DNA from: Acidimicrobiia bacterium
GTDB lineage: Bacteria > Actinomycetota > Acidimicrobiia > Acidimicrobiales > VFJN01
DNA: 64,000 nt
Direction of reading: 5' to 3'
Assembly (NCBI GenBank): GCA_009694375.1
Contig: SHVB01000001.1
Location: 258,366-322,365 of the forward strand
In this document: positions 8,080 to 41,155 of the stretch, piece by piece
Position numbering within the stretch: the first letter of the stretch is position 1
How the letters are laid out: each line of letters begins with the position of its first letter
Position numbers and translations under genes: made by a program
Notes under the pieces: generated by a model
What the model was told of the DNA's origin: nothing
Databases searched by the model: none
Seen by the model: only the letters and a program-made list of their open reading frames with translations

Positions 8080-9207
8080 GTGTCCCGCAAGATCGCCCAC
8101 CTCACCACCGTTGACCTGTCGTTGCGCTACCTGCTGTTGGCACAGATCGACGGAAGCCTCGCGGCCGGGGACGAAGTGCTCGGCATCAGTGCCCGCGGCC
8201 CCGACGTGGCGTTCCTCGAAGAACGCGGGATGCGCTTCGTCGAACTCACGGGCTCCACCCGCGCCATGAGCCTCCGCCAGGACCTGCGGGCGGCCCGATC
8301 GCTCTGGCGCATCCTGCGCCACGAACGCCCCGACGTGCTCCACACCCATACTCCCAAGCCGGGTCTGTACGGCCGCCTCGTGGGGCGCCTCGCCGGAGTG
8401 CCCCGTGTGGTGCACACCACCCACGGCCTCTACGCCGCTCCCGACGACCGGCTTCCCAAACGGCTACTCGTCTACACCCTCGAGGCCATCGCCAGCCGCT
8501 TCAGCCATGTGGAGCTGGTCCAGAACCCCGAAGACCTGGAATTGATGGGTCGTTGGCATATCGCCTCGCGCCGGAAACTTCGGCTCCTGGGCAACGGTGT
8601 AGACCTCGACCGGTTCCAGCCCGCCGAGGAGGCCCAACGGCAGGCCGAACGCGCCGCGCTCGGCCTCCAGCCCCACGATGTGGTGGTGGGCCTCGTGACG
8701 CGCCTGGTGGCCGAGAAGGGCATCGAAGAGTTGGTCAACGCGATAGCCATCGTGGGACCGCCGTTTCGTCTCCTGCTGGTGGGGCCCCACGAGCCCGACA
8801 AATCCGATGCCCTCGCCCCCGCTGTCCTCGAGCGGGCCGCCGCGAACGGCGCGATCCTCACCGGTCACCGGCCCGATGTGGAGCGGCTCTACGCGGCCAT
8901 GGATCTCTTCTGCCTCCCGTCGCATCGCGAAGGGTTCCCGCGAGCCGCCATGGAAGCCGCCGCCAGCGGCCTGCCGGTGGTGGCCACCAACATTCGCGGC
9001 TGCCGCCAGGTGGTGGACCCCGGGGTGACCGGAACCCTGGTACCCGTGCGAAATGCCGGTGCCCTCGCCGACGCGCTGCGTCTCTGCGCCGCCGAGCCGG
9101 CCCGGCGCACGCTCGGCATCGCGGGCCGGGCCAAAGCCGTCACCGACTTCGACGAAGCGACCGTGGTCGCCCGCGTGTTGGCCGCCTATGACTCCTCGGC
9201 GGATTGA
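8080..9207 (+). CDS. Glycosyltransferase family 4 (PglA/WcaA-like)
   Basis: A 375-residue GT4 enzyme starting with GTG. HTHTPKPGLYGRL in the N-half and LPSHREGFPRAAMEAAASGLPVV in the C-half are standard for transferases that extend undecaprenyl-diphosphate-linked sugars, including the PglA-like group acting after PglC. It is divergent from the GT4 at 6921-8036. Its 3' end overlaps the converging membrane protein gene by 22 bases. Assignment to the GT4 family is firm; the acceptor is inferred from the PglC-like neighbour. Confidence 0.9.
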   Translation: MSRKIAHLTTVDLSLRYLLLAQIDGSLAAGDEVLGISARGPDVAFLEERGMRFVELTGSTRAMSLRQDLRAARSLWRILRHERPDVLHTHTPKPGLYGRLVGRLAGVPRVVHTTHGLYAAPDDRLPKRLLVYTLEAIASRFSHVELVQNPEDLELMGRWHIASRRKLRLLGNGVDLDRFQPAEEAQRQAERAALGLQPHDVVVGLVTRLVAEKGIEELVNAIAIVGPPFRLLLVGPHEPDKSDALAPAVLERAAANGAILTGHRPDVERLYAAMDLFCLPSHREGFPRAAMEAAASGLPVVATNIRGCRQVVDPGVTGTLVPVRNAGALADALRLCAAEPARRTLGIAGRAKAVTDFDEATVVARVLAAYDSSAD

Positions 9208-9929
9208 GCGGCCCGGAAGCAGGCCGCCGCTGCCACCGCCAGAGCGACCACCACCGCCGCCCACCCCGGCGTCCTCGCCCAATCTCGCTGGATGGCGATC
9301 TGGCGGGCCGCCACCAACGCCGCCGCGAGGTGCACCGCCACTCCCCCGCGCCACCACCAACCCGCCAGCGGTCGCATCGGTGCCGCCACGGCGAGGACCA
9401 CCAGGGTGGTCACGCACAGACCGCCACCCACCAGGGCGTGAGCGTTCCCGGCCGCCCCTATGTACGCGGCCACCACCGGCAGGACACTGACCACAAGGAC
9501 CGCCGGTCGGGAAAGCCTCAACCCACCCAGGGCCAGCACCGCCGCCACTCCCACACTCACACCCGTCGCCACGATGGCGGTACTGGTTTCGGGCACAGCC
9601 GCCCACACCCCCACCAGGGAGGCGACCACGAGCCACAGGACCGGAGGTACTCGATCCACCGGCTCCCCCGGCAAGCGCCACGCCCCCCGTCCCACCACCA
9701 CCGCCAGGGCCAACGCTCCCACGCCCGCCCCCACCCCCAGTTCCTGCACCACCGGCGTCGGTGTACCACCGACGAACCGGCGGTCGGCCACGAGGGCCGC
9801 CAACACCGCCGCGAACACGGCGATCACCCCCACCCGGGATCGACCCCTCACCACCGCCACCGCCGCCGCCGCCCCCCCGGCCACCAGGGCCATGGCTGCC
9901 AGGGACAGGTCGATCTGGCGCAGCATCAC
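9186..9929 (-). CDS. Multi-pass membrane protein of unknown function
   Basis: A 247-residue, very hydrophobic Ala/Val-rich protein with about seven predicted membrane spans and no recognisable catalytic motif. The two N-terminal methionines leave the start at 9929 or 9926. It begins two bases downstream of the GNAT gene stop (9932) on the same strand, so they are probably co-transcribed. Its last 22 bases overlap the converging glycosyltransferase. It is too small for a typical flippase or polymerase. A role in glycan export or modification is possible only by location. Confidence 0.75.
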   Translation of the reverse strand: MMLRQIDLSLAAMALVAGGAAAAVAVVRGRSRVGVIAVFAAVLAALVADRRFVGGTPTPVVQELGVGAGVGALALAVVVGRGAWRLPGEPVDRVPPVLWLVVASLVGVWAAVPETSTAIVATGVSVGVAAVLALGGLRLSRPAVLVVSVLPVVAAYIGAAGNAHALVGGGLCVTTLVVLAVAAPMRPLAGWWWRGGVAVHLAAALVAARQIAIQRDWARTPGWAAVVVALAVAAAACFRAAQSAEES

Positions 9930-9931
9930 GC

Positions 9932-10876
9932 TCAGAACAGCTCGAGGTCGCCGAGTGAAAAGGCCAGGTCACCGAGCGGGGGAACCGCCGGACGCGCCAG
10001 CGGTCGCCAGGTCACAATGGGCCCCCGGTGGCGCAGGGGCAACACACCGTGGGTGGCACCAAACCCGATCCCGATGGCGTAGTCGCCCGCCTCCCGCACC
10101 AGCCGACCCAGGGCTGCCCGATCGGGCCGGGGCGCCAACCACTCCACAATGGCCACCTCGCGTGCCGGGCCGCGACGGCGCACACGGAAAATCACCAGCC
10201 CCCCGCCCGCCTCGATGGCGCGGTACTGGAGTGGCTCGAACGAATAGCGCCAGGCCAGATAGGCCGCCGAGCGCGGCGTGGACCACCCCGTCACCGGCAG
10301 GCCCGCGCCGAGGGCAGCCACCGCGGGATCCTGCAGCACCTCAGCCGCTGGCTCCCCAATGGCGCAAGGCTCGGACCACTTCTCCGCCGCCGTGCGAGCC
10401 TGCCGCAAGATTGGCAACCGCCACAGAGTGGCGGGACGCATCCCGATCGTCGGCCGCCCCAACTCGTGCCACCCCATCTTCAAGTAGCCGGGCCGGCTCT
10501 GCTCGTTGGGGGTATTGAAGATCGCATCCACCCCCGCGGCCGTGAGGTCCCCTACCGCCTGGAGGGTGAGTCGGCGGAACAGACCACGCCCCTGATAGGC
10601 GGGATGCGTGGCTGTGTCCACCGCCCGACCCATGGCGATCGTTTCACTTCGGCTCCGAAAGGACCAGCGCAAGAACGTCCGAAACGCCACCACCTCACCG
10701 CCGTCTTCGGCCACCCACGCCGGCGAAAGACCCGCCGGATTCTCGTCGTGTTTCCATCGAAAAAACTCGCGATCACGCTCGTCATCGGCCCATCCGAGGG
10801 CCATCGCGGCCACGGCCAGCACCTGCTCCCGGTCCCCCGGAACACTGGGCCGGATCGTCAGTTCGTCAGACGCCAT
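9932..10876 (-). CDS. GNAT-family acyltransferase with C-terminal extension
   Basis: A 314-residue protein. The N-terminal half is a GNAT acetyltransferase fold with the acyl-CoA loop HPAYQGRGLFRRL near residues 92-105 and the PGYLKMGW segment typical of GNAT domain ends. The C-terminal half, with SAAYLAWRYSFEP, is conserved-looking and probably a second, degenerate acyltransferase-like domain. The ATG at 10876 lies 72 bases from the divergent NeuB homologue. Such large GNATs are often found in polysaccharide clusters and may acylate an amino sugar. The substrate is unknown. Confidence 0.8.
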   Translation of the reverse strand: MASDELTIRPSVPGDREQVLAVAAMALGWADDERDREFFRWKHDENPAGLSPAWVAEDGGEVVAFRTFLRWSFRSRSETIAMGRAVDTATHPAYQGRGLFRRLTLQAVGDLTAAGVDAIFNTPNEQSRPGYLKMGWHELGRPTIGMRPATLWRLPILRQARTAAEKWSEPCAIGEPAAEVLQDPAVAALGAGLPVTGWSTPRSAAYLAWRYSFEPLQYRAIEAGGGLVIFRVRRRGPAREVAIVEWLAPRPDRAALGRLVREAGDYAIGIGFGATHGVLPLRHRGPIVTWRPLARPAVPPLGDLAFSLGDLELF

Positions 10877-10948
10877 CTGGCCTGCATCATGCCCGACGGC
10901 CCTCGGCTCGGGAGCGACCCCAACCGGGCGGGTAGCATCAGCGGTGTT

Positions 10949-12013
10949 ATGGCCACCCGCACGACCGACCCCGCCGCGCCGGTTCTGAACATCAAAGATG
11001 ATCGCTGTGCGGTGATCGCCGAGGTAGCCCAGGGCCACGACGGCAGCCTGGGCCTGGCGCACTCCTTCATCGATCTCGCCGCCGAGGCCGGGGTTGACGC
11101 CATCAAGTTCCAAACCCACATCGCGGCGGCCGAGAGCACGCCCGAGGAGCCATGGCGGATCAACTTCAGTTACGAAGACACCAACCGCTACGCCTACTGG
11201 CAGCGCATGGAGTTCACCGAACCCCAGTGGCAGGGCCTGCGCGACCATTGCGATGGGAACAACCTTGGCTTTATCTCCTCGGCTTTTTCCACCGAGGCGT
11301 TGGAGTTGCTCCGCCGGGTCGGGGTGGCAGCCTGGAAGATCTCCTCGGGTGAAAGCCTCTCGTCGGACCTCTTGCGCCACCTCGGCAACGAAGGCGTACC
11401 CGTGCTCATCTCCACCGGCATGTCCACCTATGCCGACATCGCGGCCGCCGTGGACCATTGCCGAGCTGCCGGGAGCGAACCCGTGCTTCTGCAGTGCACC
11501 TCGATGTACCCCACCCCGCCCGAGCGACTGGGGCTCAACGTGCTCGCCGATCTCCGCCGCCGCTTTGACTGTGCCGTGGGCCTGTCGGATCACTCCGGCA
11601 CGATCTACCCGGGCCTGGCGGCGGTGGCCCTCGGGGCGGTGGTGCTGGAAGTGCACATGACGTTCTCGCGGCGCATGTTTGGGCCCGATTCGCCGGTGGC
11701 CCTGGAACCCGATGAGCTAAAAATCCTGGTGGAAGGGGTGCGATTCCTCGAGCGGGCGCGCGCCGCCCCGGTAGACAAAGACGCGGTGGCCGCCGAGTTG
11801 TCCGAGGTGCGCAATCTATTCGGCAAGTCCCTAATCAGCGCCCGAGCCCTGGCCGAGGGAACCGTGCTCACTCACGATGACCTCACCGCCAAGAAGCCGG
11901 CCTTTGGCATCCCCGCCACCGAGCGGGAGGTCATCGTGGGCCGCACGCTGCGCGTGGCGGTGCCCGCTGGCCACCCACTCTCCGTCGACGACCTGGCCGA
12001 CCCATCCCATTGA
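10949..12013 (+). CDS. Nonulosonic acid synthase (NeuB/SpsE/LegI family)
   Basis: A 354-residue PEP-dependent C9 sugar acid synthase with an N-terminal TIM barrel and a C-terminal SAF (antifreeze-like) domain from about residue 290. Seen motifs include VIAEVAQGHDGS, AIKFQTH, STGMST, GLSDHSG and EVHMTFSRRMFGPD; the two histidines in SDH and EVH match metal ligands of NeuB. The family condenses PEP with a 6-carbon mannosamine-type sugar to give sialic, legionaminic or pseudaminic acid. It is the first gene of an operon of seven to eight genes running to 19006, and its stop overlaps the TTG start of the next gene. Confidence 0.92.
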   Translation: MATRTTDPAAPVLNIKDDRCAVIAEVAQGHDGSLGLAHSFIDLAAEAGVDAIKFQTHIAAAESTPEEPWRINFSYEDTNRYAYWQRMEFTEPQWQGLRDHCDGNNLGFISSAFSTEALELLRRVGVAAWKISSGESLSSDLLRHLGNEGVPVLISTGMSTYADIAAAVDHCRAAGSEPVLLQCTSMYPTPPERLGLNVLADLRRRFDCAVGLSDHSGTIYPGLAAVALGAVVLEVHMTFSRRMFGPDSPVALEPDELKILVEGVRFLERARAAPVDKDAVAAELSEVRNLFGKSLISARALAEGTVLTHDDLTAKKPAFGIPATEREVIVGRTLRVAVPAGHPLSVDDLADPSH

Positions 12014-12975: not shown

Positions 12976-13015
12976 ACACACGATGCATCCATTGTCTGCC
13001 CACCAGGAGGCCTCG

Positions 13016-14164
13016 TTGCGCAAGGTGTGCGTTGTCGTCACCGCTCGACCGAGTTATGCCCGCATCAAGAGCGTCCTCGAAGCCGTGCGCGATCGGGCCG
13101 ACCTCGAACTGCAGTTGGTCGTTGGAGCATCGGCGCTGCTCGAACGCTACGGCCCGGCCATCGATGTCATACGGGCCGACGGCTTCGAACCCGACGCGGT
13201 TGCCTACATGGTGGTGGAAGGCGAAAACCTCGTCACCACCGCCAAATCCACCGGCCTGGGCGTGGTGGAGCTGGCTTCGATCTTTGATCGCCTCCAGCCC
13301 GACGTCGTGGTGAGCGTGGCCGACCGCTACGAGACGATCGCCACCGCCATTGCCGCGTCGTACATGAACATTCCCCTCGCCCATGTGCAGGGGGGTGAGA
13401 TCACCGGCTCGATCGACGAGAAGGTTCGCCACGCCGTAACCAAACTGGCCGACATCCACCTGGTGGCCACCGAACTAGCCCGCCAACGAGTGGTGCGCAT
13501 GGGTGAGGTGCCCGCCAGCGTGTTCCTCACCGGCTGCCCGTCGATAGACCTCGCCGATCGAGTGGCCCGGGAGACAGAACCGTTCGATCCGTTTGACCGC
13601 TACGCCGGGGTGGGCGAGGAGTTCAGCGTCGATCAGGACTACGTCGTGATCATGCAGCACCCGGTGACCACGGAGTACGCCGATGCCACCCAACAGATCG
13701 ATGCGACCCTCGCCGCCCTTACGCAGATGGATCTGCCGGTGTTCTTCTTTTGGCCGAACGTAGACGCCGGTTCCGATCGCATCTCCAAACGCATCCGACA
13801 GTTCCGAGAGGAATACGATCTCCCGCACGTGTACTTCTTCAAGAACCTCCCCCCCGAAGACTTCCTGCGGCTGATCAGTCGGGCTCGCTGTGTCATTGGC
13901 AACTCCAGCGTGGGCATACGCGAGTGCTCCTACCTAGGCGTGCCCGTGGTGAACATCGGCACTCGGCAGCACGGCCGGGAGCGCGGCCCCAACGTGATCG
14001 ACGTACCCGCTTCGAGCGATGAGATCGTGGCCGCCGTGCAGCGCCACCTGGCTACCGAACCGGCGCCGGGCGTACACATCTACGGCGATGGGCAGGCGGG
14101 CAGGCGGATCGCGGAGGTGCTCGCCACCTGTGCACTCACCATCGAGAAGCGCCTCACCTATTGA
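13016..14164 (+). CDS. UDP-N-acetylglucosamine 2-epimerase, hydrolysing type (NeuC/LegG family)
   Basis: A 382-residue GT-B-fold hydrolysing 2-epimerase. Motifs include TARPSYARIK at the N-terminus, HVQGGEITGSIDEKVRHA mid-protein and GNSSVGIRECSYLGVPVVNIG near the C-terminus. It releases UDP from a UDP-2-acetamido sugar and inverts C2, giving ManNAc or its 4-acetamido-6-deoxy analogue, the substrate of NeuB-type synthases. I chose TTG 13016 because AGGAGG lies five bases upstream and the protein then starts like its relatives; an in-frame ATG at 12983 with a more distant AGGAGG is the alternative. It sits in one operon with the NeuB and NeuA homologues. Confidence 0.9.
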   Translation: MRKVCVVVTARPSYARIKSVLEAVRDRADLELQLVVGASALLERYGPAIDVIRADGFEPDAVAYMVVEGENLVTTAKSTGLGVVELASIFDRLQPDVVVSVADRYETIATAIAASYMNIPLAHVQGGEITGSIDEKVRHAVTKLADIHLVATELARQRVVRMGEVPASVFLTGCPSIDLADRVARETEPFDPFDRYAGVGEEFSVDQDYVVIMQHPVTTEYADATQQIDATLAALTQMDLPVFFFWPNVDAGSDRISKRIRQFREEYDLPHVYFFKNLPPEDFLRLISRARCVIGNSSVGIRECSYLGVPVVNIGTRQHGRERGPNVIDVPASSDEIVAAVQRHLATEPAPGVHIYGDGQAGRRIAEVLATCALTIEKRLTY

Positions 14165-14927: not shown

Positions 14928-16048
14928 GGATCTACTGGTACGCCCCCTTCGACAACGCGTCGGAGATCGAACTCGCCCAGGCGTTGGTGGGCCAGGTCTC
15001 CGACCTCGTCCTGCACTCGGTTTACAGCCGATTTGGGGTGCGTCTTCCCAAACGAGACGACGAACTCACAATGGTGCGCGACCTCCCCGCTCCCGCCAAC
15101 GAACTCTTTCGGAGAAGTACCCGGTTCCGTCGCGCCAAGGTGGCGTTAAACCGCGCCCGGTTCCGTCAACACGAGATCTCCAACGGCGACTTTGATCTCG
15201 TCCACCTCCACACGTTCAACATGTTCACGGATTGGATCGCCCTGCCTCTGCTCCGGCGGAAAGGTCGGCCGCTGGTGCTCTCGGTCCACAACGTGCGCCC
15301 GCACGACCAACGCGGACCCCGCGCGATCGAGACACTGGTTCACCGATTGGCGTACAACGTGCCCGACCGCCTCATCGTGGCCCATGAGAGCCTCCGCACC
15401 CGCCTCGTCGAGGAGTTCAGGATTGCGCCGGAACGGATCTCGGTGGTCCCTCTTCCCAGCCCCCGGGTGGAACTGGCCAGTGATCATCCCGCCGAAAATC
15501 CCAAGGAACTGCTGTTCTTCGGCACCCTGCGTAGCAACAAGGGCCTTGAGGTATTGCTCAGCGCCATCGCCTCGATTCCTCGTGCTACCCCGATCATTTT
15601 TCGGATTGCCGGTCGCGGTGATCACGAGATCGAGCAGCTCATCGCGCGCCACGCCCAACATGATCCGCGTATCCGCGTGGAGATTGGTTGGATCACCCCC
15701 GAACGCCAAGCCACCCTGTACGCCCGTGCCTGGGCGGTGGTGGTCCCCTACCTTCCGGCCTTCGCGGCCCAGAGTGGCACCGTCCGCGTGGCGTACAGTT
15801 TCGGCACCCCGGTCATCGCGTCCAATACCGGCGCGCTCGGTGAGACCATCCGCCAAGACGGGACCGGCTGGCTGGCCGAGCCCGGCGATCCACGTGACCT
15901 CGCCGACCGGATGCTGGCGGCGGTAGCCGATGTTGAGGGTCGCCAGGCCCGGGCACTGGTGGCCAAACGCCTCGGCCAGGAGCGCAACGCCGAAACCCTG
16001 GCGCCGCTGGTACTCCAGCTCTACGCGGAACTCGGCGTCGTCCCATGA
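14924..16048 (+). CDS. Glycosyltransferase family 4
   Basis: A 374-residue GT-B enzyme. The N-half contains FDLVHLHTFNMF and SVHNVRPHD; the C-half contains LLFFGTLRSNKGLEVLL and SFGTPVIASNTGALGE, typical of GT4 donor-binding domains. Start and stop overlap both neighbours by four bases, placing it firmly inside the nonulosonate operon. Likely adds a hexose or aminohexose to the same glycan that receives the nonulosonic acid. Sugar and linkage are not predictable. Confidence 0.87.
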   Translation: MRIYWYAPFDNASEIELAQALVGQVSDLVLHSVYSRFGVRLPKRDDELTMVRDLPAPANELFRRSTRFRRAKVALNRARFRQHEISNGDFDLVHLHTFNMFTDWIALPLLRRKGRPLVLSVHNVRPHDQRGPRAIETLVHRLAYNVPDRLIVAHESLRTRLVEEFRIAPERISVVPLPSPRVELASDHPAENPKELLFFGTLRSNKGLEVLLSAIASIPRATPIIFRIAGRGDHEIEQLIARHAQHDPRIRVEIGWITPERQATLYARAWAVVVPYLPAFAAQSGTVRVAYSFGTPVIASNTGALGETIRQDGTGWLAEPGDPRDLADRMLAAVADVEGRQARALVAKRLGQERNAETLAPLVLQLYAELGVVP

Positions 16049-17397
16049 GCGATCCCGGTCGATCGGTCGGGCACCCAAACACCGATGGGCTTGAGGAGGT
16101 GGCGGACGCGCTGTTGCACACGATCGCCAGCGATGGCCTGGGGCGGGGTCTGCTGTGGTCGGCCGCTCCCACTGCGCTTCTCGACCATGCCCGGGGTTCG
16201 GCGGCGCCTCCGGGGCGAGGCGGAGGCCGGGGGGCCCGGCCCACCATCACCACCCTGCTGGCGGCACTGGCCACAGCCCGCGGGTCGTGCCTCACCACCG
16301 TGGACAACGTGTTGTTTGCCTACGAAGGGGCCAACCCGCAGGCCACCCTCGCGCCGGTAATCGATGCCACCGCCCGAACCCGCGGCGTGGCACCCGTGAC
16401 TCACTCTGTGCGCCCACCGCTGTCGCTGCTCACCGCCGGAACCCGCGACCTCCGCCATGAGCGGGCCGCCCTACGCCAGGCGCTTCCGGCCGGGGTGCCT
16501 GAGGCTGTTGAGCGGGCCCTGCAAGCCGCGGTGCGGGCCCACGCCCGCGCCGAGGCAGCGCTGGATTCCATTGAGCCGCGTTTGGTGGTGCTGGCCTCCC
16601 AGCACTCCACCGCTTCACGGGCGTTGATCCAAGCCGCCCGGGTACGCCAGATCCCCACCGCTTACCTCCCCCACGCCCCGGCGGCCGACACCTACCAGTA
16701 CCGCGATCTCCCCACTGATTTCGCCGGATTGCGGGGGGCCCGAGAAGTGGATTTCTATCGGTCGCTCGGGGCTCGAGGGGCCCTCGCGGTGGTGGGCAAT
16801 CCCCAGGCCCAGGTGGTGATCCCCCCGCACCTGAACCCCGAGGCGGCGGTGATCTTCGCGCCTCGGCCCCAACCCATCGCCGAGGTGCGCGAGCAGGTCG
16901 CGGCGGTGGCGGAGGCGGCGGAGGCCGTGGTCGTGTCTCCGCACCCTCGAATGCGCCACCAGCGGCGCTACGCCGATCTATGGCCCGCGCACTGGGAGGT
17001 GCACCACGGCTGGACGGCCGAGCTGCTACGGGACGCCCACCCGTGCGTGATCCAACGCTCTAGCGGGGTGGCGTGGGAGGCCATGGCCCATGGTGTTCCG
17101 GTGATCGAGTTGGCCTCACCCGCCGCGGGGGATCCGTCGTACCTCATGATTCGCGAGCCCTACGCCCGGCGGTGCGCCTCGAACAACGACTTGCCCGCCG
17201 CGGTAGCCCAGGCCCGTCAATCCGCCACCGACCCCCTCGCCCGCCAGCAACTCATGGCCTGGGCGCAGGAGTGGTGTGCCGTCAGCGGCTCCCACGCGGT
17301 GGCTCGGGCCACCGAGTGGATCGAGCAGTGTGCGTCGGCTCCCTACCCCGCGGAGCCCCTACTCGACTATTGGGCACAGCCGTCCGGAGTGGCATGA
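16045..17397 (+). CDS. Putative GT-B-like surface-carbohydrate transferase, function unassigned
   Basis: A 450-residue protein I cannot place in a named family. The C-terminal half looks like the donor domain of capsule or CDP-glycerol-type GT-B transferases: VVVSPHPRMRHQRRY, then CVIQRSSGVAWEAMAHGVPVIEL, which is the usual S-S/G...EA...G.PVI pattern around the nucleotide-sugar site. The N-terminal half has no clear motif and contains a Gly/Arg-rich loop near residues 57-66. It is coupled by ATGA overlaps to the preceding glycosyltransferase and to the cytidylyltransferase that follows, so it is a candidate for using the CMP-nonulosonate. That role is inference. Confidence 0.7.
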   Translation: MSDPGRSVGHPNTDGLEEVADALLHTIASDGLGRGLLWSAAPTALLDHARGSAAPPGRGGGRGARPTITTLLAALATARGSCLTTVDNVLFAYEGANPQATLAPVIDATARTRGVAPVTHSVRPPLSLLTAGTRDLRHERAALRQALPAGVPEAVERALQAAVRAHARAEAALDSIEPRLVVLASQHSTASRALIQAARVRQIPTAYLPHAPAADTYQYRDLPTDFAGLRGAREVDFYRSLGARGALAVVGNPQAQVVIPPHLNPEAAVIFAPRPQPIAEVREQVAAVAEAAEAVVVSPHPRMRHQRRYADLWPAHWEVHHGWTAELLRDAHPCVIQRSSGVAWEAMAHGVPVIELASPAAGDPSYLMIREPYARRCASNNDLPAAVAQARQSATDPLARQQLMAWAQEWCAVSGSHAVARATEWIEQCASAPYPAEPLLDYWAQPSGVA

Positions 17398-18140
17398 GCG
17401 ATCCACGACCTCTGGTCCTCGCGGTGGTCCCGGCCCGGGGTGGGTCCCGTGGCGTCCCGCGGAAAAACATTCGCGTGTTGGGAGGCCACCCGCTTCTCGC
17501 CTACACCATCGCGGCGGGCCGGGCGAGTGAACGGGTGACCGACCTCGTGGTGTCTACCGAGGATCCTGAGATCGCCGAGGTAGCTCGCTCTTACGGTGCC
17601 GAGGTGATCGACCGACCCGACGCCCTCGCCACCGATGAGGCTCCCACTGCGCCGGTGATTCAGCACGCCATCGAGCGCGTCGAGGAAGCCACCGGGCGCA
17701 CCTACGACTACATCCTTACCCTCCAACCCACCACACCGTTTCGCCGCGGCTGGGACATCGATGCGGCGGTTGATCTCCTGGAGGCCACTGCGAACCCGGC
17801 GGCGAGTGTCACGAGCGTGGTGCGGATCTTCGATGCCCATCCGCTGCGGGTGAAGCGCCTGACGCAGGACCGCCTGCAGCCCTACATCGCCGGCGATGAC
17901 GTCCCCACCCGGCGCCAGGACCTTCCTCCCGCCTACCTGCGCAACGGCGCCATCTATCTGGCCCACCGACCCACGGTGACCGGCGGTTCGGTGTGGGGGA
18001 ACCCGGAGATCCCCTACCCGATGCCGCCTGAGCGGTCGGTCAACATCGATGAACCACTCGACTTCCTCCTCGCCGAAGCGGTGGTGCGGGCAGGCCTCAC
18101 CGAGATCGACCTTCTCCTCGAATCCCCCCAGGACGACTGA
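17394..18140 (+). CDS. CMP-nonulosonic acid cytidylyltransferase (NeuA/LegF family)
   Basis: A 248-residue nucleotidyltransferase. The N-terminal signature VPARGGSRGVPRKNIR is the CTP-binding loop of acylneuraminate cytidylyltransferases; LQPTTPFR and YLRNGAIYLAHR are further family landmarks. It activates a nonulosonic acid as its CMP derivative before transfer. ATG 17394 overlaps the preceding stop by four bases. Together with the NeuC and NeuB homologues upstream it completes the activation route. Confidence 0.92.
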   Translation: MSDPRPLVLAVVPARGGSRGVPRKNIRVLGGHPLLAYTIAAGRASERVTDLVVSTEDPEIAEVARSYGAEVIDRPDALATDEAPTAPVIQHAIERVEEATGRTYDYILTLQPTTPFRRGWDIDAAVDLLEATANPAASVTSVVRIFDAHPLRVKRLTQDRLQPYIAGDDVPTRRQDLPPAYLRNGAIYLAHRPTVTGGSVWGNPEIPYPMPPERSVNIDEPLDFLLAEAVVRAGLTEIDLLLESPQDD

Positions 18141-18142
18141 GC

Positions 18143-19006
18143 ATGCACCCTTCCAACGACTACTACGGCCACGAGATGATCCTGTCGTGGGCCGCCTCGA
18201 TCCATCGCCCGAAACGAACCTTCGGTTACATCCAGCACGGGTGGAAGCCGGAGTCGGGGTTTCCGGCCGACATGCGCCTGATCCCGAAGGCGCCGTTATT
18301 CGTCTGGTCCGAAGCCAACCGCTCGGCCACCGCGGCGCGTCATCCGGGCCACACCGTGGAGGCCATCGGCGCGCCATTCCTGTACCTCCATGAGCTCTTG
18401 AAGCCCGCCCTGGCGATCGAGCCCACCAAGGACCTCCTCGTCTATCCGTGTCATCAACTCCGCAGCGCCCCCCTGGCTGGCGAGGTGCACTCGACCCTCA
18501 TCGATCAGGTCCGGGACCTGGATCCCACCTCCATCACGGTGAACCTCCATCCCTATGAGTTCGACGATGGGCACACCGTCGCGCTGTACCAAAGCGAGCT
18601 GCCGGATGCGACGGTCACCACGAACTGGCTACGACCCCCGTGGGTGGTTAGCGACGATCCCACCATGTTGATCCGCCAGATCCTTCAGATGTTGGATCAC
18701 CGACGCGTGGTGTCGAACTGCCTCACCACCGCCGTGCTGTACGCGTCGTACCTGGGTCGCGACGCCCGACTGCTTCGGCACCCTGAGCGCCGCCAACCCC
18801 CTACCGAGGGGCGCGGACGAGCACTCCATGAAAGATTGGAGCAAGCCACCAACGGCACAGCCCTCGCCGCCATCGCGGCGAGCGAGTTGGGGGCCGACCA
18901 TCTCCGTACGCCCGACGAACTGCGGGCCGTGCTGGGATGGGACTCCCGGTGGCGCGGCGCGGCGGCGGGAACCGTCCGGCTCTTCGGGTCCATCCGGAAC
19001 CACTAG
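18143..19006 (+). CDS. Putative surface-carbohydrate transferase, half-length GT-B-like protein
   Basis: A 287-residue protein without a confident family. It contains YIQHGWKP, FVWSEANRSATAARHPGHTVEAIGAPFLYL and ITVNLHPYEF, then a late SNCLTTAVLYASYLGRDARLL stretch. The QHG, HP and S...A-x-x-x-G pattern recalls CDP-glycerol/polysialyltransferase-like donor domains. It starts two bases after the cytidylyltransferase stop and ends the operon; 24 bases separate it from the converging ABC transporter. It may act with, or instead of, the 450-residue protein as the transferase that uses the CMP-sugar. It appears short for a complete GT-B enzyme. Confidence 0.68.
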   Translation: MHPSNDYYGHEMILSWAASIHRPKRTFGYIQHGWKPESGFPADMRLIPKAPLFVWSEANRSATAARHPGHTVEAIGAPFLYLHELLKPALAIEPTKDLLVYPCHQLRSAPLAGEVHSTLIDQVRDLDPTSITVNLHPYEFDDGHTVALYQSELPDATVTTNWLRPPWVVSDDPTMLIRQILQMLDHRRVVSNCLTTAVLYASYLGRDARLLRHPERRQPPTEGRGRALHERLEQATNGTALAAIAASELGADHLRTPDELRAVLGWDSRWRGAAAGTVRLFGSIRNH

Positions 19007-19030: not shown

Positions 19031-20821
19031 TCACGCGTCGGCGGCCCCGAGGCGGGCGACGAGATCGACCTCGCTGGCATCGCCCTGGGCCACCACCCGA
19101 CCATGCTCGAGCACAATGAAGCGATTGCAGCGTCTGATCAGGGCATCTCGGTGCGACACCACGATCACGATCGAGGTTGGGGACAGGTCGAGCAGAGACT
19201 GCTCCACCAACGCCTCGTTGGCCGCGTCGAGGGCACTGGTGGGTTCATCGAGGATCAGGCAGGTGGGCGAGGCCAGCAGCGAGCGGGCCAGAGCCACGCG
19301 CTGGCGCTGCCCCCCTGACAACGATGAGTGCCCCTCCCCCACTGCGGTGGCATAGCCCTCGGGTAGGGCCTCGATCTCCCGATCAATCCCGGCACGCCCG
19401 GCGGCGCGTTGCACCTGCTCGGCCGTTGCGGGGCGGTGAAAGGCGATGTTCTCGGCGATGGTGGCGGCCAGGAGCACGGGTTCTTGGGATAGCAAGCCCA
19501 GTTGCGTGGTCCACGACTGCGCCGAATAGGTCTCCACCGCCGCACCATTCACCTGCAGCGACCCCGTCGTGGGCGACAACAGTCCGGCCAGCGTGTTGGC
19601 CAGGGTCGTCTTGCCGCCCCCGGAGGGGCCGATCACGCCCAGCCAGTCGCCGGGTCCGAGGTCGAGGTTGATGCCCTCGAGCGCCTGGTGTCCCGAGGGA
19701 TAGCGATAACCCAGGTTGTGGAGCGAGATGGCGGTCACCGGCCCCAGTTCGGCGTCACCCCGGGGGGTTTGCCGATCTCGGTTGTCGCTCACCGAATCAA
19801 GGAGTTCTTCGAGGAACGGCCTCGTCTCTACATAGATCTGAACCGACGAGTTCAGTTGCTGGATGTAACTCAGCGAGCGCACGGCCAGAATGGCGGCCGT
19901 CCCAAACGCTACGGCCGCCACATCTATCGCCCGCCCCACCACCACGATCCCCACGATGGCGGCCAGCAGCACCTGCTGGTAGACGCTCGGCAGCATCCGC
20001 TGAATGAACTTCAGACGGGCGTAACTGTCCGCGGTGGCACTACTCAGATCCTTCAGACGAGTGGCCGCCGCTTCCTCCACCCCGAAGACGTGGAGTTCGC
20101 GATTGAGTTGCACGTACGACGTGGCGTTGAGTTGCAGGTCACCGAGGAGATCCGCTTGCCCTCGCGCCAGGTGCTTCGACCGCCGTCGCAGCGGGTTCAA
20201 CGCGGCGGCGGAGCCGAGGGCCACCACGGCGAACAACAGGGCAATGGCAGGGGCGGTGACCACCACGATGACCAGGTAGATGGCGAGGCTGATCACCGCC
20301 ACCGAGGCCACCGAGAGTAACTGGAGCGGGATCACCGCCTGTTGGGCGTTCAACCCCAGCAACTGCTGCAGGCGCCCAAGACGAGCGGCGTGGAGGTGCT
20401 CCCAATCGGCCGCGAACCAGGCGTCGATCACCAGGGAACGGGCCCGGCGCAGCGCGAACGCCTGGTTCCGGGCCGATACCTGGGCTTCGGCGAGTCGGGC
20501 CAGCAGCGTGATCAGCAGGCTGATCGCCGCCACGCCGGCGAGGGCGCCAAAGGACAACGAGCCCGTGAATGGCCCCCAGGCAAGATTGGCCCGGTTGTTG
20601 TCCTCGACGAGGAGCAGCAGCAGGCGAAGAATGGTGAGGAGCGACACCGTCTCGGACACCGCGATCACGGTGCCCAGGATCGGATGCACGATCAATCGGC
20701 GACGTCGGGGGCCAAAGAGGCGGCCCAGCATCTGCCAGAGGCTAGCGACGGTATCGGGGGCCACTGAGGCGACCGCCCGCTTCAGGGCGCTCACGGAGCC
20801 ACCCCAGGAGGTACCAACCAC
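19031..20821 (-). CDS. ABC transporter, fused membrane and ATPase domains (PglK/MsbA-like)
   Basis: A 596-residue half-transporter: six membrane helices (about residues 40-320) followed by an ATPase with Walker A GPSGGGKTTLAN, signature LSGGQRQRVALA and Walker B LILDEPTSALD. The neighbourhood suggests a flippase for a lipid-linked oligosaccharide, like PglK. The start is uncertain: GTG 20821 gives the full frame, GTG 20794 would start at VSALKRAV and would overlap the stop of a 24-codon frame (20791-20865). It converges with the nonulosonate operon and is divergent from the PqqD-HprK-like gene. Peptide export is an alternative because of that neighbour. Confidence 0.9.
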   Translation of the reverse strand: MVGTSWGGSVSALKRAVASVAPDTVASLWQMLGRLFGPRRRRLIVHPILGTVIAVSETVSLLTILRLLLLLVEDNNRANLAWGPFTGSLSFGALAGVAAISLLITLLARLAEAQVSARNQAFALRRARSLVIDAWFAADWEHLHAARLGRLQQLLGLNAQQAVIPLQLLSVASVAVISLAIYLVIVVVTAPAIALLFAVVALGSAAALNPLRRRSKHLARGQADLLGDLQLNATSYVQLNRELHVFGVEEAAATRLKDLSSATADSYARLKFIQRMLPSVYQQVLLAAIVGIVVVGRAIDVAAVAFGTAAILAVRSLSYIQQLNSSVQIYVETRPFLEELLDSVSDNRDRQTPRGDAELGPVTAISLHNLGYRYPSGHQALEGINLDLGPGDWLGVIGPSGGGKTTLANTLAGLLSPTTGSLQVNGAAVETYSAQSWTTQLGLLSQEPVLLAATIAENIAFHRPATAEQVQRAAGRAGIDREIEALPEGYATAVGEGHSSLSGGQRQRVALARSLLASPTCLILDEPTSALDAANEALVEQSLLDLSPTSIVIVVSHRDALIRRCNRFIVLEHGRVVAQGDASEVDLVARLGAADA

Positions 20822-20988: not shown

Positions 20989-22125
20989 GTGGTCCTGGCT
21001 GTTCTCCCGTACCCCTCTCCTGACATACTCCGTGCCACGCTGGCCGAGTGGTCCGTGGCGTATGACCTCACCACCCAGACCACCCACCTCCTGAGTCCGG
21101 AAGCGGGCTGGGTGTTGGATCTGTGTGATGGGCAGGCCTACACCGAGGAGCTTGTGGCCGAGATCGCCGGCATCACCGGCGGTCCCACCGATGACATAGC
21201 CGCCGATGTGCACGCCTATTTGGAGATGCTCAGCGAGATCGGGTTGGTGGGCGAGCGGGATGGGCTCACCACCCCGGTGGTGGCCGAGAGCACGAGAGCC
21301 GCCGATCCTGCTGGTCCTTACGTCAGCGCAGGGCTGCGGGTGCTGACCACCGGAGTGGTCCTTCGCAGCAATGACGCAGCGCTGCTGGCCCAAGCCGAGA
21401 CGCGGGTGGCGTCGCTTCGAGGGGACCTACCCATCACCGTGACCATCGACATGAAGGCGCAGCCCGGGGGCGACGTCACCCTCACCGGCGGGGGTCCGGC
21501 CCGTTCCTATGCCTCGCCAGCCGAAGCCCTCGACGACCTGCCCCATGCGCTTCGCTCCATCGCCACCCACACCCCCGTTTGCCTCGTGCTGCGCTCCGGG
21601 TGTGTGCGTTCCCCCGACGGTGAGGTCGTCTTGTTACCCGGTCCGTCCGGATCGGGGGCCACCACCCTGGCCGCCGCACTCATTCGCCTCGGCTGGGACT
21701 ACGCCAGTGACGCCATCGTGGGAATCCAATCGGCGCCGCCACGAGCGCTCGCCTACCCCGCTCCACTGGCCCTGAGCGACGAAAGCCGCCGCATCCTCCG
21801 ACTCGACCCCTCCCCATCGGCCACCACCAACCCCACCGACGTGCGGGCCGATGTCACGATCCTCCACGGCCCCGTCGGCCCGGTAGAGCGGGTCGTCATC
21901 ACTTTCTTCCAAGCCGGAGCGCGCCTGCACCTCGAGATGCTCGACCCCACTGTTGCGGTGGGCGCGCTACTCGAGCACGCCCTCAACCTGGCCGAGGTCG
22001 GTAACGCCGGCCTCGACATCGTGTGTGATCTGGCCCAGCGTGTGCCGGTGCTGGGCCTGGTGCACAGCGACATCAACGAGGCCGTGGCGGCGGTCAATGA
22101 TTCGTCGCCCCGGCCCGGGCCGTAA
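20989..22125 (+). CDS. PqqD-like domain fused to an HprK-like kinase domain (Walker A lysine missing)
   Basis: A 378-residue two-domain protein starting with GTG. Residues about 20-90 look like a PqqD-type peptide-binding domain: LSPEAGWVLDLCDG, ELVAEIAG, ADVHAYLEMLSEIGLV. Residues about 110-370 resemble HPr kinase/phosphorylase relatives, with GCVRSPDGEVVLLPGPSG, a P-loop at 218-226 and SDAIVG at 240-245. The P-loop reads GPSGSGATT, with Ala224 where the catalytic lysine is expected. HprK-related kinases paired with PqqD-like proteins are known beside glycan and peptide-modification loci; their targets are mostly unknown. It is divergent from the ABC transporter. No HPr gene is present. Confidence 0.75.
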   Translation: MVLAVLPYPSPDILRATLAEWSVAYDLTTQTTHLLSPEAGWVLDLCDGQAYTEELVAEIAGITGGPTDDIAADVHAYLEMLSEIGLVGERDGLTTPVVAESTRAADPAGPYVSAGLRVLTTGVVLRSNDAALLAQAETRVASLRGDLPITVTIDMKAQPGGDVTLTGGGPARSYASPAEALDDLPHALRSIATHTPVCLVLRSGCVRSPDGEVVLLPGPSGSGATTLAAALIRLGWDYASDAIVGIQSAPPRALAYPAPLALSDESRRILRLDPSPSATTNPTDVRADVTILHGPVGPVERVVITFFQAGARLHLEMLDPTVAVGALLEHALNLAEVGNAGLDIVCDLAQRVPVLGLVHSDINEAVAAVNDSSPRPGP

Positions 22126-22141: not shown

Positions 22142-23407
22142 TCAGAGGCGTTCGACGTTGGCGGCGTGGGGCAGGCGGGCCTTGGTATCGAGCACGTAGC
22201 GGGCGTGGGCCACGATCACGGCGGGATCGAAGGCCGCGTGGTCCACCAAGAGCACCACGGCATCGGCCGACGCGATCTCCTCGGGCGTGGCCTCCACCGG
22301 CCGCACCCCGGCCGGGAAGCGATCGGAGGCCACGTGCGGATCGGCGGCCACCAGTTCTGCACCCAGATCCGCCAGCAGGTGGGCCACTCGGTGGCTGGGG
22401 CTCTCCCGCCAATCCCCCACGTTGGCTTTGAAGGAGATGCCCAGCAGGAGGATGCGACTCCCCCGGATGGGCTTGCCCTGATCGTTGAGGGCACTGAACA
22501 GGCGTCGTACGACGTAGTCGGGCATGTGCTCGTTGACGTCGTTCGCCAATTCCACGAAGCGGAAACTCTGCCCCAGTCGGCGTTTCACCTGCCAGGAGAG
22601 GTAACTCGGGTCCACCGGGAGGCAGTGGCCACCCACGCCCGGACCGGGCGTGAAACGCAGGTACCCAAACGGTTTGGTGGAGGCGGCGTCGATGGCCTCC
22701 CACACGTCGATTCCGAGATCGTGGGCGAACATCGCCAGTTCGTTCACCAGGGCGATGTTCACATGCCGGAACGTGTTCTCGAGAAGTTTGGTGAGTTCGG
22801 CTTCCTTCGGGGTGGATACTGGCACCGTGGTCTCCACGATCCGGTCGTAGAACAATCGGACGGCGGCGAGGCTGGCGGCGTCGACCCCACTCACCACTTT
22901 CGGGGTGTTCACCAGGGTGTAGGTCTGATTGCCCGGGTCGATGCGCTCGGGGGAATAGCCGAGGTGAAAGTCCTCGCCGGCCCGCAGTCCCGACCCGGCC
23001 GCCAGGATGGGGGCGAGGCGCTCCTCCGTCGTGCCGGGGTAGGTGGTGCTCTCCAGCACCACGGTGGCCCCCGGCGTGAGCAGCGGGGCCAGATCGGCAC
23101 CGGCCTTGTCGATGAAGGTGAGGTCGGGGATGCTCTCGCGCAGCGGGGTGGGCACCGTGATGATGGCCACATCAAAACGGGCCAGGCCCGCGAGGGTGGA
23201 CACGGCTCGATAACGACCAGTGGCCAAGGCCTCCGCCACATCGTGATCGCTGATGTCCTCCACGAACGACGTGCCCGAGGTCAACGCAGCCACCCGCGCC
23301 TCGTCCACGTCGTAGCCGATCACCTCGTAACCAGCGGCCACCGCCCGCATCGCCAGGGGCAAGCCCACGTATCCCTGCCCCACGATGATGGCGATCTCGT
23401 TGCTCAT
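22142..23407 (-). CDS. UDP-sugar 6-dehydrogenase (WecC/WbpA/TuaD family)
   Basis: A 421-residue three-domain nucleotide-sugar dehydrogenase. NAD-binding motif VGQGYVGLPLA is at the N-terminus; the catalytic cysteine is Cys262 in GPGVGGHCLPVDP; conserved Lys207 and Asn211 lie in LTKLLENTFRHVN; the UDP-binding C-domain follows. It oxidises C6 of UDP-Glc, UDP-GlcNAc or UDP-ManNAc to the uronate in two steps. Sequence style (SPERIDPG, NTPKVVSG) is closer to the N-acetylhexosamine dehydrogenases. It is the last gene of the glycan region before pth, and converges with the PqqD-HprK gene. Confidence 0.92.
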   Translation of the reverse strand: MSNEIAIIVGQGYVGLPLAMRAVAAGYEVIGYDVDEARVAALTSGTSFVEDISDHDVAEALATGRYRAVSTLAGLARFDVAIITVPTPLRESIPDLTFIDKAGADLAPLLTPGATVVLESTTYPGTTEERLAPILAAGSGLRAGEDFHLGYSPERIDPGNQTYTLVNTPKVVSGVDAASLAAVRLFYDRIVETTVPVSTPKEAELTKLLENTFRHVNIALVNELAMFAHDLGIDVWEAIDAASTKPFGYLRFTPGPGVGGHCLPVDPSYLSWQVKRRLGQSFRFVELANDVNEHMPDYVVRRLFSALNDQGKPIRGSRILLLGISFKANVGDWRESPSHRVAHLLADLGAELVAADPHVASDRFPAGVRPVEATPEEIASADAVVLLVDHAAFDPAVIVAHARYVLDTKARLPHAANVERL

Positions 23408-41052: not shown

Positions 41053-41106
41053 GATCGCGCCGCGGAGCAGCACCGAACCACTTCATGAGGGTCAACACCT
41101 CCAACC

Positions 41107-41155
41107 CGCTCCCTGTTCCCGCTCCCTGTTCCCGCTCCCTGTTCCCGCTCCCTGC
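41107..41155. repeat. 13-bp tandem repeat in a divergent intergenic region
   Basis: Nearly four direct copies of CGCTCCCTGTTCC at 41107, 41120, 41133 and 41146 (last copy degenerate). They fill the 120-base space between the nfu-like gene (start 41052) and the membrane protein gene (start 41173). Copies are identical apart from the last, which suggests recent expansion or selection for a binding site. Confidence 0.92.

Follow-up and report, generated by a model that had tools for sequence, protein, structure and literature searches.

A PqqD-HprK fusion protein with a degenerate kinase site in a nonulosonic-acid locus of the Candidatus Microthrix group: a putative pseudokinase

What can a kinase-like protein do once the lysine of its phosphate-binding loop has been replaced? 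The question is raised by an ORF in the window (the whole stretch of 64,000 nucleotides analysed here), which an earlier sequence-only reading described as a PqqD-like domain fused to an HprK-like kinase. That reading left three options: a pseudokinase, a protein that binds nucleotide and does not hydrolyse it, or an enzyme acting on a small molecule or peptide. The host genome assembly (G000; 2.58 Mb, 96% complete) has as near relatives Ca. Microthrix parvicella and Actinomycetota, and a single scan of genome contigs gave close relatives alone; Ca. Microthrix is a filamentous bacterium of sewage sludge. The ORF has a GTG start, a TAA stop and a high coding score, and its frame is unbroken at the corresponding position in two further species of the Ca. 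Microthrix group (genomes G001 and G003), in which the sister proteins share 94% and 82% identity with the window protein. The gene and its domains are as follows.

20989..22125, + strand: putative PqqD-HprK pseudokinase fusion gene, 378 aa (Pfam, NCBIfam, AlphaFold2, Foldseek)
20989..21273, + strand: PqqD / RRE-like winged-helix domain, aa 1-95, core from aa 13 (PF05402, model, Foldseek match to TbiB1)
21325..22101, + strand: HprK-like P-loop domain, catalytically degenerate, aa ~113-371 (TIGR04352 below threshold, Foldseek HprK/PEPCK, alignment to 1ko7)

The PqqD profile PF05402 matched aa 24-87 with 30.6 bits, above the Pfam gathering cut-off of 23.4. The NCBIfam profile for HprK-related kinase A, TIGR04352, matched aa 191-370 (E 1.4e-15) with 57.2 bits against a cut-off of 200, so that the protein is related to this family and is not called as a member of it. 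An AlphaFold2 model built with 29 sequences was confident (pLDDT 91.9, pTM 0.88). Its N-terminal part, with strands within residues 13-35 and helices within residues 37-83, forms a three-stranded winged-helix fold like that of the leader-binding RREs. When the model was compared with the PDB by Foldseek, this part matched TbiB1 with its leader peptide (5v1u; E 9.8e-4, TM 0.76 by target), and the kinase part matched HprK (1kkl, 3tqf) and PEPCK with probability 1.00. Together, the profile, model and Foldseek matches confirm the PqqD plus HprK-like architecture, with the PqqD/RRE fold present at the N-terminus where the first reading had placed it. The N-terminal domain is thus PqqD/RRE-like and, from the modelled fold, a predicted peptide binder.

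The kinase domain differs from its family at three places in the active site.

21592..21594, + strand: codon 202, Arg (CGC) in place of the His of the family's LH motif (alignment)
21640..21666, + strand: degenerate Walker A motif GPSGSGATT, aa 218-226, in which Ala224 (GCC at 21658-21660) replaces Lys
21709..21714, + strand: codons 241-242, Asp-Ala against Asp-Glu or Asp-Asp in the family (alignment)

The loss of the Walker A lysine was as first described. The P-loop glycines, Thr225/226 and Asp241 are kept. The sequence-only reading missed the changes at Arg202 and at Ala242, the latter being the second acid of the SDE motif (the DE/DD pair). In alignment to Staphylococcus xylosus HprK (1ko7) the changed positions fall at the LH, GKS and ADD motifs. 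We surveyed the active sites of 95 related domains from this order and phylum, the Microthrix ones included. The pattern H-K-[S/T/A]-[D/E]-[D/E] was found in 91 of them, which also keep the Walker A lysine, and positions 202, 224 and 242 are otherwise near-invariant across the survey. R-A-T-D-A is the reading in each of the three Ca. Microthrix-group genomes with the gene; outside this group the lysine is lost only in genome G018 (H-T-S-N-G). Since three separate assemblies agree, chance or assembly error is unlikely, and a single mutation in the window protein was likewise ruled out. A relocated catalytic lysine was excluded because no lysine is common to the three proteins. The YPA that follows the acid pair in place of YP[K/R] was not counted as a loss, this motif being variable in intact relatives also. 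In the HPrK/P of Mycoplasma pneumoniae, both ATP binding and kinase activity are strongly affected when Gly159, Lys160 or Ser161 is mutated (PMC11204831). From the residues at the site we infer that the fusion protein would lack kinase activity. A separate variant of the motif was seen in genome G185 (L034:801-1685, + strand), where an HprK-like domain reads SGKAT; here the lysine is kept and Ala replaces the Ser/Thr that follows it.

Comparison of the three species by the NG86 method gave a dN/dS of about 0.25 over the gene and 0.21 in the kinase domain (pS 0.320 against pN 0.099, z 7.8). Conservation is highest in the segment around the P-loop, aa 199-245, where 3 of 47 columns vary, compared with 77 of 378 overall, although the boundaries of this segment were set after the data had been seen. 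This conservation indicates that the site is still under constraint, and the degenerate site is probably still doing something, though without its lysine. The gene thus combines lost catalytic residues with a predicted fold kept under purifying selection, as expected of a pseudokinase. Among the options first offered this is the one now supported: three active-site positions have been lost, purifying selection acts on the gene in the three species in which the losses are fixed, and there is no replacement lysine. Modification of a substrate has become less likely. It should be noted that the kept residues and the conserved P-loop segment would also fit retained nucleotide binding, and to that extent count against the preferred reading.

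The strongest alternative is accordingly an atypical active enzyme, or a nucleotide-binding switch, in which Arg202 takes the place of Lys224 in binding phosphate. The glycines, Thr225/226 and Asp241 of the site are kept, the segment that holds them is the most conserved of the protein, and Arg202, which is invariant in the three species, could restore positive charge to the site. However, arginine is never seen at this position in intact relatives, the second acidic residue is gone as well, no lysine is conserved, and the equivalent lysine mutation strongly affects ATP binding in the M. pneumoniae enzyme cited above. We regard this alternative as unlikely; nucleotide binding as such may be retained.

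The catalytic loss is derived. In a tree of 85 rows the three Microthrix sequences fall in a clade of ten (SH-aLRT 98), of which the other seven are all PqqD-fused and all have intact sites; a smaller tree with bootstrap gave 93/92 for the same ten. Because the Microthrix sequences nest among intact PqqD-HprK fusions, the intact state came first. Intact fusions in related families have approximately 33-38% identity. The second degenerate case, in G018 (contig C213, L063:11473-12708, + strand), is also a PqqD-HprK fusion, with Thr in place of the Walker A Lys and Asn-Gly in place of the acid pair; it is known from one genome, which is without PF14907. The best tree needs two changes, one in Microthrix and another in G018, but a tree that unites the four degenerate rows in one clade was not rejected by an AU test (p 0.43). 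With one clade retained by this test, and with G018 represented by one genome, the independence of the two losses is not established.

The relatives usually carry a nucleotidyltransferase of family PF14907 (NTP_transf_5), often beside the kinase, with PqqD either separate or fused. Of 46 genomes whose kinase is intact, 41 carried PF14907; it was not found in G000-G003 or G018, which include all four degenerate-site genomes (G000, G001, G003 and G018). For the association of its absence with a degenerate site, Fisher's test gave p 0.0005, or 0.019 with the genus counted once, a comparison in which kinship is not fully corrected. Several of the intact systems sit with polysaccharide genes, such as those for undecaprenyl-phosphate sugar transferases, PglD-like proteins, glycosyltransferases and a Wzz/BYK-like protein. 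By analogy, the intact systems may act like the kinase and nucleotidyltransferase of lasso-peptide clusters, on some peptide. In two genomes, PqqD and PF14907 genes lie beside a Wzz/BYK-like polysaccharide protein (L071:5640-11647 in G057 and L066:8352-11837 in G054), L071 also having an HprK-like kinase; this is a repeated and little-described pairing. Another unusual pairing was found in G002, which belongs to the Microthrix genus, where a 221-aa protein joins PqqD to a SET domain, PF00856 (contig C131, L201:10080-10745, - strand).

The absence of PF14907 from the genome, together with the loss of the catalytic residues, would suit a protein that is a functionless relict of a lost PqqD-HprK-nucleotidyltransferase system and is now decaying. 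Such a protein would hardly be expected to keep an unbroken ORF and its synteny in three species, a dN/dS of the low value given above, a confident predicted fold and a P-loop segment that varies less than the remainder of the protein. Decay is therefore quite improbable.

The gene sits in a cluster for nonulosonic acid, a sialic-acid-like surface sugar, which also holds glycosyltransferases; the transporter and sugar genes noticed earlier as its neighbours proved to be an ABC exporter and this cluster.

10820..12013, + strand: NeuB-type nonulosonic acid synthase (profile matches)
12983..14164, + strand: NeuC-type UDP-GlcNAc 2-epimerase (over the NCBIfam cut-off)
17394..18140, + strand: CMP-nonulosonate synthetase, PseF/NeuA-like (profile matches)
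19031..20821, - strand: ABC exporter, permease plus ATPase, a divergent and conserved neighbour (PF00005, NCBIfam type-I-secretion/MsbA-like; synteny)
22142..23407, - strand: nucleotide-sugar dehydrogenase of UDP-ManNAc type, a conserved neighbour (profile matches, synteny)

Gene and glycan cluster are syntenic in G001 and G003. G002 is without the fusion gene, NeuC and the exporter alike, which suggests, in this small sample, that gene and locus are present or absent together. The fusion gene is flanked by one divergent and one convergent gene and so has no immediate neighbour in its own direction; nothing in this arrangement points to its being transcribed together with the glycan operon. 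Regulation through HPr was set aside: the earlier remark that no HPr gene lies nearby holds for the whole 96% complete assembly, in which PF00381 had no match at E<=0.01. A lasso-peptide cluster was set aside since no match to the B2 protease profile PF13471 was found at E<=0.001 in ten genomes, with a sensitivity that is uncertain, the control being positive in only 2 of 14 genomes.

Our preferred explanation, which we hold to be probable, is that the protein is an HprK-family pseudokinase kept as a non-catalytic adaptor that binds a peptide or partner in glycan assembly or export. An HprK-related P-loop domain without the phosphate-holding lysine, the site-adjacent histidine and the second acid of the DE/DD pair would be retained in folded, non-catalytic form. 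A peptide or protein partner would then be bound by the PqqD domain together with what was once the kinase surface; possible candidates are the ABC exporter encoded on the divergent side and a protein that carries glycan. The fusion protein would thereby serve as an adaptor or chaperone in assembly or export of the nonulosonic-acid surface glycan of the locus. We infer the partner and the adaptor role with less support than the absence of kinase activity. That the protein is instead a regulatory pseudokinase for another HprK-like protein, whose site is intact and whose gene lies in a further glycan cluster of the same genome, is rather improbable: a candidate with intact motifs does exist among glycosyltransferases on contig C9, and paired nearby HprK-related paralogues are common in relatives, but this candidate has no more than a remote relationship to the fusion protein (18 bits) and is encoded on a different contig. 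The C9 protein itself (L072:7793-8893, - strand) is the second HprK-like protein of the genome and a distant one; it matches PF07475 weakly and has intact GGKTE and ADEW motifs.

Known systems resemble the fusion protein in part. HprK-related kinase A (TIGR04352) and its PqqD partner (TIGR04353) belong to the same fold family and show the same PqqD/HprK-like pairing; here, in contrast, PqqD is fused, three active-site positions are lost, PF14907 is absent and the score falls far short of the family cut-off. HPr kinase/phosphorylase shares the C-terminal P-loop fold, as seen in the Foldseek matches, but in our protein the Lys, the His and one acid are replaced, the N-terminal domain is PqqD-like, and no HPr was found in the assembly. 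The lasso-peptide kinase K of paeninodin type is homologous to HPr kinase, has peptides as substrates and is clustered with a PqqD-like leader binder (PMC8498205). The lasso kinases are active enzymes whose target is a C-terminal Ser, whereas the site here is degenerate, and the genome gave no match to PF13471 or PF14907. The lasso nucleotidyltransferase N of pseudomycoidin, which may belong to PF14907, is compared with it by likeness of system. In Myxococcus xanthus, EcpK is a BY-type P-loop pseudokinase proposed to be a scaffold in exopolysaccharide synthesis (PMC12004946), so that the principle of a pseudokinase scaffold has already been proposed in another kinase family. EcpK differs from our protein in being related to bacterial tyrosine kinases rather than HprK and in having no PqqD domain.

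A full-text search of the open literature, with subscription papers outside its scope, returned no paper centred on an HprK-family pseudokinase, and the fusion may therefore be an early example of one. A broader proposal is tentative, and we think it somewhat doubtful: that a system of PqqD, HprK-like kinase and PF14907, which phosphorylates a peptide and attaches a sugar to it and is common in the polysaccharide loci of this order, has been reduced in Ca. Microthrix to a phosphorylation-independent adaptor, which would make a class of HprK-family pseudokinases. The intact fusions offer a natural control for what such a protein does without phosphotransfer. The locus also draws attention to the little-studied pairing of PqqD, HprK-like kinase and PF14907 in polysaccharide loci, which resembles the phosphorylating and glycosylating kinase and nucleotidyltransferase of lasso peptides.

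Further observations were made in the window. Three glycan-cluster genes (16045-17397, 18143-19006 and 9186-9929) are conserved in the three species and match no Pfam family over the cut-off. The NeuB ORF (10028-12013, + strand) is open for approximately 260 codons upstream of its NeuB-like part, and the same frame is open in the two other species; an additional domain or an artefact of the start site would account for this. Finally, a perfect 13-bp tandem repeat of 3.8 copies is located at 41105-41154.
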